This document shows, piece after piece, positions 60,180 to 61,665 of a stretch of DNA of 64,000 nucleotides. A program made the translations under genes and the position numbers. The stretch is taken from contig CANJGB010000015.1 of assembly GCA_947473805.1 (NCBI GenBank), positions 1 through 64,000 of the forward strand, in the 5' to 3' direction. The notes under the pieces are model-generated. The model saw nothing but the letters and a program-made list of their open reading frames with translations. It did not search any database and was not told where the DNA came from. Position 1 is the stretch's first letter; each line of letters begins with the position of its first letter. Source of the DNA: Alphaproteobacteria bacterium (GTDB taxonomy: Bacteria; Pseudomonadota; Alphaproteobacteria; Ferrovibrionales; Ferrovibrionaceae).

Positions 60180-60608
60180 TTAGGTGGCTTGCGCCGGCGG
60201 CGGGTTCGGCTGGTTGCGCCGGTCGTTCATGAACTGGTCGAACTCGGCCTTGTCCTTGGCGTGACGCAGGCGGTCGAGGAACTCGCGGAATTCCTTCTGC
60301 TCGTCCTCGAGGCGGCGCAGCGTCTCGTCGCGATACTCGTCGAAGGCGCGGTTGCCGGTCGAGGGCGCCTTGCCCATCCAGCGGCGGAACATCTCGCGCG
60401 CACGGTCCTCGCCGCGTTCGCCGAACTCGCCACGCTCGTGCCGGCAGCCGTGCCAGCGGTCATGCTTCCAGGCCTTCATCCGTCCGCTCCCGATCAAGAA
60501 GAACAGCACCGCCAGGCCAACCGGCCAGAACAGGATAAAGCTGAGGATCATCAGCCCCAGCCAGGCGGGTTTGCCCATGTCGTCCAGTCTGCCGATTACG
60601 TTGCCCAT
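60180..60608 (-). CDS. DUF2852 membrane protein
   Basis: This 142-aa protein has one strongly hydrophobic helix (GLMILSFILFWPVGLAVLFF) then a cytoplasmic helical part with the family ending TGNRAFDEYRDETLRRLEDE and FREFLDRLRHAKDKAEFD. DUF2852 is almost confined to alphaproteobacteria and has no known role. GGAGG stands 6 bases before ATG 60608. A 25-bp near-perfect palindrome sits 11 bases upstream of the start and resembles a dyad at the TetR gene 80 bases further up, so TetR control is likely. Confidence 0.88.
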   Translation of the reverse strand: MGNVIGRLDDMGKPAWLGLMILSFILFWPVGLAVLFFLIGSGRMKAWKHDRWHGCRHERGEFGERGEDRAREMFRRWMGKAPSTGNRAFDEYRDETLRRLEDEQKEFREFLDRLRHAKDKAEFDQFMNDRRNQPNPPPAQAT

Positions 60609-60619
60609 CGATGCCTCCG

Positions 60620-60644
60620 ATGTGAATGTTAACAACATTTACAT
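60620..60644. promoter_or_regulatory. 25-bp palindrome upstream of the DUF2852 gene
   Basis: The 25 bases from 60620 form a palindrome with only two mismatched positions around a central base. The outer half-sites are ATGTGAA and TTTACAT. The same half-sites occur in the dyad overlapping the start of the neighbouring TetR gene. A site 12-36 bases upstream of the DUF2852 ATG would cover its promoter. Binding by the TetR protein is inferred. Confidence 0.65.
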
Positions 60645-60687
60645 TAGGGATGGCCAGCCCCCCTGTCAATCGGCCGGGATGAAAATT

Positions 60688-61332
60688 TTATGTCGGTGCG
60701 ACCGGGCTGAATCCAAGACCCTGCAGGTAAATCAGCACCGCCGCTTCCAGCAGTTCCTCCGCCGTCATCGGCAGCTTGCGCCGGCCGGCGTCGCCGCGCC
60801 CGAACAGCGAGGCGATGCCATGCGCCAGCGCCCAGACATGCAGGCTCATCATCAGCGCGGGCGGCCGCTTGCCGGCCGGCAGCAGGGCGCAAAGCGCGTC
60901 GGACGCGGTGCGCAGCACGCCGAAGGCGCGGTCGCCCGCCGCCTGCAGGTCGGCATCGAGATCGGGCGGCAGGCCTGATTCGAACATCGCCGCGTAATAG
61001 GCGGGCTCGGTGCGGGCGAAGTGCAGGTACGCCTTGCCCACATTGGCGAAGGCGGTCATCGCGTCGGGCTTGCCGTTGCTCCACGCGATGGACAGCGTGT
61101 TCTCGAAGCGGGCAAAGCCTTGCCGCGCCACATCGGCCATCAGGGCGTCGCGGTCGCGGAAGTGGCGATAGGGCGCCGCCGCGCTGACGCCGGCCGAGCG
61201 CGCAGCATCGGCGAAGGTAAACCCCGCCGGTCCCTTCTCGGCAATCAGGTTCAGCGCCGCCTGGATCAGCGCCTCGCGCAGATTGCCGTGGTGGTAGCCG
61301 CGCGCGCCGCTATGTCGGTCCTTCCAGCCCAT
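60688..61332 (-). CDS. TetR-family transcriptional regulator
   Basis: The 214-aa protein has an N-terminal helix-turn-helix (FTFADAARSAGVSAAAPYRHF, about residues 38-58, shown here as FADAARSAGVSAAAPYRHF) and a TetR C-terminal domain of the WHG type (HVWALAHGIASLFGRGD). It acts as a repressor released by a small hydrophobic ligand. It may control its own gene and the DUF2852 gene through ATGTGAA/TTTACAT dyads. A small membrane gene upstream ends 16 bases before its ATG. The ligand is unknown. Confidence 0.92.
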   Translation of the reverse strand: MGWKDRHSGARGYHHGNLREALIQAALNLIAEKGPAGFTFADAARSAGVSAAAPYRHFRDRDALMADVARQGFARFENTLSIAWSNGKPDAMTAFANVGKAYLHFARTEPAYYAAMFESGLPPDLDADLQAAGDRAFGVLRTASDALCALLPAGKRPPALMMSLHVWALAHGIASLFGRGDAGRRKLPMTAEELLEAAVLIYLQGLGFSPVAPT

Positions 61333-61349
61333 GTGAAGGGCTTTTACAT
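61331..61349. promoter_or_regulatory. 19-bp dyad overlapping the TetR start codon
   Basis: Bases 61331-61337 (ATGTGAA) and 61343-61349 (TTTACAT) form a near-palindrome with a 5-base spacer, two mismatches in all. It shares both half-sites with the 25-bp palindrome at 60620-60644. It covers the TetR start codon and the stop of the upstream small gene, a place where a repressor could block expression of the regulator itself. Confidence 0.5.
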
Positions 61350-61590: not shown

Positions 61591-61637
61591 AATCAATTGA
61601 CACATTGATTATCAATTAATACGTTGACAGTCAACGT
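61591..61637. promoter_or_regulatory. Cluster of palindromes upstream of the DUF899-ArsR operon
   Basis: Three dyads lie in 47 bases: AATCAAT and ATTGATT with a 6-base spacer (61591-61610); ATTGAT-T-ATCAAT (61604-61616); and an ACGTTGAC-A-GTCAACGT palindrome (61621-61637) with perfect 8-bp arms. TTGACA at 61597 and at 61624 could be -35 boxes. AT-rich ATCAAT/ATTGAT dyads are typical of ArsR-family operators, and the operon encodes an ArsR protein, so autoregulation is likely. Confidence 0.55.
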
Positions 61638-61665
61638 GATGATTTATCGAAAGCGGGAGCAGGCA

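Follow-up and report, generated by a model that had tools for sequence, protein, structure and literature searches.

The window, a 64,000-nucleotide stretch of an alphaproteobacterial genome, carries a TetR-family regulator gene next to a gene of the DUF2852 family, with a similar palindrome in front of each. This raises the question of whether the regulator controls its neighbor and, if so, whether that control offers a first clue to what DUF2852 proteins do. No role was known for DUF2852 when the circuit was first proposed, consistent with the excerpts of PMC6377625 and PMC6515984 that concern the family.

Two rare palindromes mark a TetR gene and a DUF2852 gene

Both genes lie on the minus strand. 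The regulator (60688-61332, 214 aa) is a TetR-family protein, with TetR_N (3e-11) and TetR_C_33 (1.1e-14) both above their Pfam gathering scores, an AlphaFold2 (AF2) model of high confidence (pLDDT 91.8), and Foldseek matches that are TetR regulators. We ruled out its identity as BetI, AcrR, MtrR, FabR, or RutR, as the best NCBIfam equivalog reached 36.6 bits, where 250 is the cut-off. The second gene (60180-60608, 142 aa) encodes the only DUF2852 protein in the genome (PF11014, E 2e-43; 147.7 bits compared to a gathering score of 22.5). Its start is most likely at 60608, because a minus-strand Shine-Dalgarno sequence, GGAGG, is located at 60614-60618, about 5 nt ahead of the ATG. An alternative, longer open reading frame would start at 60638.

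The original prediction described a 25-bp dyad in front of DUF2852 and one of 19 bp over the TetR start, and both were found in the sequence at 60620-60644 (ATGTGAATGTTAACAACATTTACAT) and 61331-61349 (ATGTGAAGGGCTTTTACAT), respectively. With its start at 60608, DUF2852 begins downstream of the 25-bp dyad; the alternative start at 60638 would fall within the dyad. The 19-bp dyad takes in 2 bp of the TetR start codon (61332-61330).

Short AT-rich palindromes can occur randomly, so we considered whether the dyads might be chance palindromes, or RNA hairpins, with no regulatory role. A scan of the 3.31-Mb genome for ATGTRAA-N3-13-TTTACAT returned two matches, both at this locus, while the reversed-pattern control returned none. 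Shuffling the 64-kb window 100 times with dinucleotide composition kept also produced no match. Across many families the half-sites are near-invariant, while the 5-bp center of single units drifts. The TetR site barely reaches into the coding sequence, and the DUF2852 site overlaps the -10 region. Together, these observations make a chance or hairpin origin exceedingly improbable.

Another palindrome, TACGTTGACAGTCAACGTG, was observed at 61620-61638 in the window, ahead of a DUF899 gene. Next come an ArsR-family regulator and an open reading frame resembling the DUF899 gene. This palindrome is a candidate ArsR operator.

The predicted operator site is conserved with the gene pair

Searches of relatives and of named genomes placed the close TetR matches in Reyranella, Enhydrobacter, and other Rhodospirillales, so that the window probably derives from the vicinity of Reyranella. 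The culturable species Reyranella soli and Enhydrobacter aerosaccus (L053, L084) have both genes of the pair. DUF2852 was the adjacent gene for nearly all TetR orthologues (median gap 109 bp), and a search of the flanks for conserved neighbors found only TetR and DUF2852 to be widely conserved. At linked loci, a site matching at least 11 of 12 scored positions preceded DUF2852 in 110 of 111 cases. The remaining locus (L068) is only an apparent exception and was set aside, since an assembly gap (NN) occupies the expected operator position. Near the TetR start, a site matching at least 10 of 12 positions was present in 104/116 orthologues, with the G of ACATG following directly in 102 of the 104. 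The start-codon dyad was missing from the other 12, and autoregulation is therefore not universal.

Within the class, DUF2852 was present in 61 of 385 genomes (approximately one in six) and the TetR orthologue in 48, which by the family labels used span about 25 families; 47 of the 48 also encode DUF2852. By hand tally, a site of at least 11/12 preceded DUF2852 in all 46 testable TetR-positive genomes compared to 0 of 14 TetR-negative genomes. One genome (G087) was left out of the 46 because a contig end truncates it. This co-occurrence corresponds to a Fisher p of about 6e-14, a value that ignores shared ancestry, and since genomes within families are related, the conservation counts are not independent. 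Shuffled windows attained an 11/12 site in 0.03% of cases. A stricter pattern, ATGTRAATGTN5ACATTYACAT, occurred in 13 of the 385 genomes, at one place each, and coordinate comparison put every occurrence just upstream of DUF2852. It was absent from the 324 genomes lacking DUF2852, and the reversed control gave no matches. The link between TetR and DUF2852 through the shared dyad thus withstood comparison across species, with the dyad kept in every testable TetR-positive genome, and is confirmed to be much stronger than the window alone could reveal.

Family f107 contains both states: TetR and the site are present in G393, whereas both are missing from G227 and G316, genomes of 1.5 Mb that retain DUF2852. 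In the sole TetR-positive genome lacking DUF2852 (G051, locus L019), the TetR gene is broken by two stop codons and the start dyad carries a 1-bp insertion, an apparent case of joint decay of the TetR/DUF2852 module. Separately, at two loci with no TetR orthologue (L175 and L176), two copies of a different dyad, of the AAGTGAAC..GTTCACTT type, lie approximately 68 bp apart upstream of DUF2852, which suggests a different regulator there.

DUF2852 retains the site when the genes are unlinked

In the four genomes of family f23 (G039, G170, G267, and G345), TetR is far from DUF2852 and beside a PPK2-like gene (in G039, confirmed as PF03976), and the unlinked DUF2852 is preceded by two 19-bp sites 58-59 bp apart. 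Three further loci (L101, L107, and L113) have a TetR gene with neither a DUF2852 neighbor nor a start dyad. A site was predicted at their unlinked DUF2852 genes and was found in 3/3.

These loci bear on whether the dyads could belong to a different regulator, with TetR merely a co-regulated neighbor of DUF2852. Consistent with that idea, TetR lacks a site of its own at L101, L107, L113, and L209, although DUF2852 has one. However, the site before DUF2852 tracks TetR in the 46-to-14 genome comparison even when the genes are unlinked, and in G051 the broken TetR coincides with a disrupted start dyad and an absent DUF2852. Another regulator would need exactly the distribution of TetR, and we consider this explanation very unlikely compared to ownership of the sites by TetR.

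In the f23 genomes, the 3' end of the gene upstream of TetR runs into the TetR orthologue. At L247 (4098-5574) this upstream gene is a polyphosphate kinase 2 (PPK2, PF03976), and L248, L249, and L250 have a similar open reading frame. These genes probably form a ppk2-tetR operon that is unlinked to DUF2852.

Genomes with extra sites were inspected for further members of the regulon. Two f66 genomes of one genus have a third site in common, at the edge of long overlapping open reading frames. G345 has a single extra site ahead of a nitroreductase-family open reading frame, and G267 has one where an esterase-family open reading frame starts. The two are unlike, and neither was counted as a conserved target.

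DUF2852 usually has a double predicted operator and TetR a single one

The operator unit is 19 bp, ATGTnAA-N5-TTnACAT, with 12 scored positions. The 25-bp operator contains one such unit at 60626-60644 (ATGTTAACAACATTTACAT), which matches 12/12 by itself, and a weaker 10/12 unit at 60620-60638 that overlaps it with a 6-bp offset, an arrangement conserved in orthologues. A second unit at offset 6 was present in 89% of DUF2852 sites compared to 0% of TetR-start sites. The two dyads had originally been described as sharing their outer half-sites at different spacing; the half-sites are indeed shared, but the apparent difference in spacing is explained by one 19-bp unit in two arrangements, paired at DUF2852 and single at the TetR start. 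With its second unit at offset 6, the long operator has room for two overlapping dimer sites, as in the pair-of-dimers (QacR/CprB-like) subclass. In some cases DUF2852 is preceded by a single unit, or by two separate units 58-59 bp apart, and the overlapping pair is therefore not essential. At L034 and many Reyranella loci, the 25-bp site is closely followed on its downstream side by an extra CGTTAAC, which repeats part of the operator center and is a possible additional half-site.

On the minus strand, a -35-like TTGACA is located at 60664-60669, and CTTGAC is conserved upstream of the operator, at the same distance from it, in orthologues. Alignment of the orthologues points to a -10-like TAATGT at 60641-60646, 17 nt from the -35 element, such that the 25-bp operator probably overlaps the DUF2852 -10 region. 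A generic sigma-70 scan did not list this promoter since its -10 matches only 3/6 positions, poor by E. coli rules. The tetR operator spans the probable -10 through the start codon. Its position, together with no evident Shine-Dalgarno sequence, suggests that the tetR mRNA may be leaderless.

Some TetR-family proteins act as activators, and TetR could therefore own these sites but activate DUF2852 instead of repressing it. Nonetheless, a protein bound to an operator that covers the -10 region and the probable start site would be expected to block polymerase, and DUF2852 is kept in genomes without TetR and the site, as expected if its expression does not depend on TetR. Activation is thus unlikely, and repression is the preferred reading.

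DUF2852 is predicted to be a small membrane-anchored protein

The AF2 model of DUF2852 (pLDDT 78.7) has one membrane helix (residues 13-40), joined by a basic linker of low confidence to a long C-terminal helix (87-132). Basic residues directly after the membrane helix suggest, by the positive-inside rule, that the C-terminus is cytoplasmic. Sequence and fold searches with DUF2852 found no useful relative among solved structures, and literature searches with the operator letters and PF11014 returned only unrelated papers among the matches listed, in part apparently through Plasmodium gene names and similar strings. In published excerpts, the DUF2852 protein BR2114 of Brucella suis was less abundant in a mapB mutant (PMC6377625), and the Bradyrhizobium diazoefficiens protein bll7160 was induced at low oxygen, with a protein-level log2 change of 2.5 (PMC6515984). 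The same excerpts name no dedicated DUF2852 regulator. These data are compatible with a role in envelope or respiratory stress, without establishing one.

A model for regulation of DUF2852 by TetR

Collectively, the conserved dyad, its co-occurrence with TetR, and its retention at unlinked DUF2852 genes support the TetR-controlled circuit of the original prediction. TetR is very probably a dedicated, autoregulated local repressor of DUF2852 that binds the target promoter, probably as a pair of dimers. We propose that one dimer would bind each 19-bp unit, and that the two overlapping units at DUF2852 would place a dimer pair across the -10 region and the probable transcription start, blocking RNA polymerase. 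The single unit at the start codon of tetR, on a probably leaderless mRNA, would give weaker autorepression. A ligand in the C-terminal domain of TetR would then release both promoters, leading to more of the small membrane-anchored DUF2852 protein.

More tentatively, the circuit could be an old membrane-stress switch of the Alphaproteobacteria with one regulator and one target, in which the only conserved job of TetR is to control DUF2852 in response to an envelope or metabolic signal. The target would carry the double operator, and the regulator, with its probably leaderless mRNA, the single one. An inducer that lifts TetR off its operator should reveal what DUF2852 responds to and is an entry point to its function. 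The 19-bp and 25-bp operators would also make a clean pair with which to study how the strength of regulation depends on single versus overlapping TetR sites.

Comparison with known systems

On this model, the circuit belongs to a known type, the local TetR repressor with autoregulation, and DUF2852 is its new, uncharacterized target. Like TetR, BetI, and AcrR, which are autoregulated local repressors, the regulator has an operator common to its own and its target promoter, but its scores are far below the NCBIfam equivalog cut-offs and it is none of these named regulators. Its best match among solved structures is 3on2, a TetR-family protein from Rhodococcus sp. RHA1 (sequence E 5.3e-17; Foldseek E 9.6e-8 at roughly 30% identity). 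Since 3on2 has no known function, it points to neither a ligand nor a target. On the target side, the available text of PMC6377625 and PMC6515984 assigns BR2114 and bll7160 to the same Pfam family as the DUF2852 protein of the window.

The closest parallels for the operator are QacR of Staphylococcus aureus and CprB of Streptomyces coelicolor, whose 28- and 22-bp operators are each bound by two dimers (PMC4150764), with no orthology to this TetR indicated. The likeness lies in a TetR-fold regulator with a long operator, here 25 bp made of two 19-bp units offset by 6 bp, from which the number of dimers is deduced. Unlike those systems, the target here is DUF2852 rather than an efflux pump or antibiotic pathway, and a single 19-bp unit is also used.
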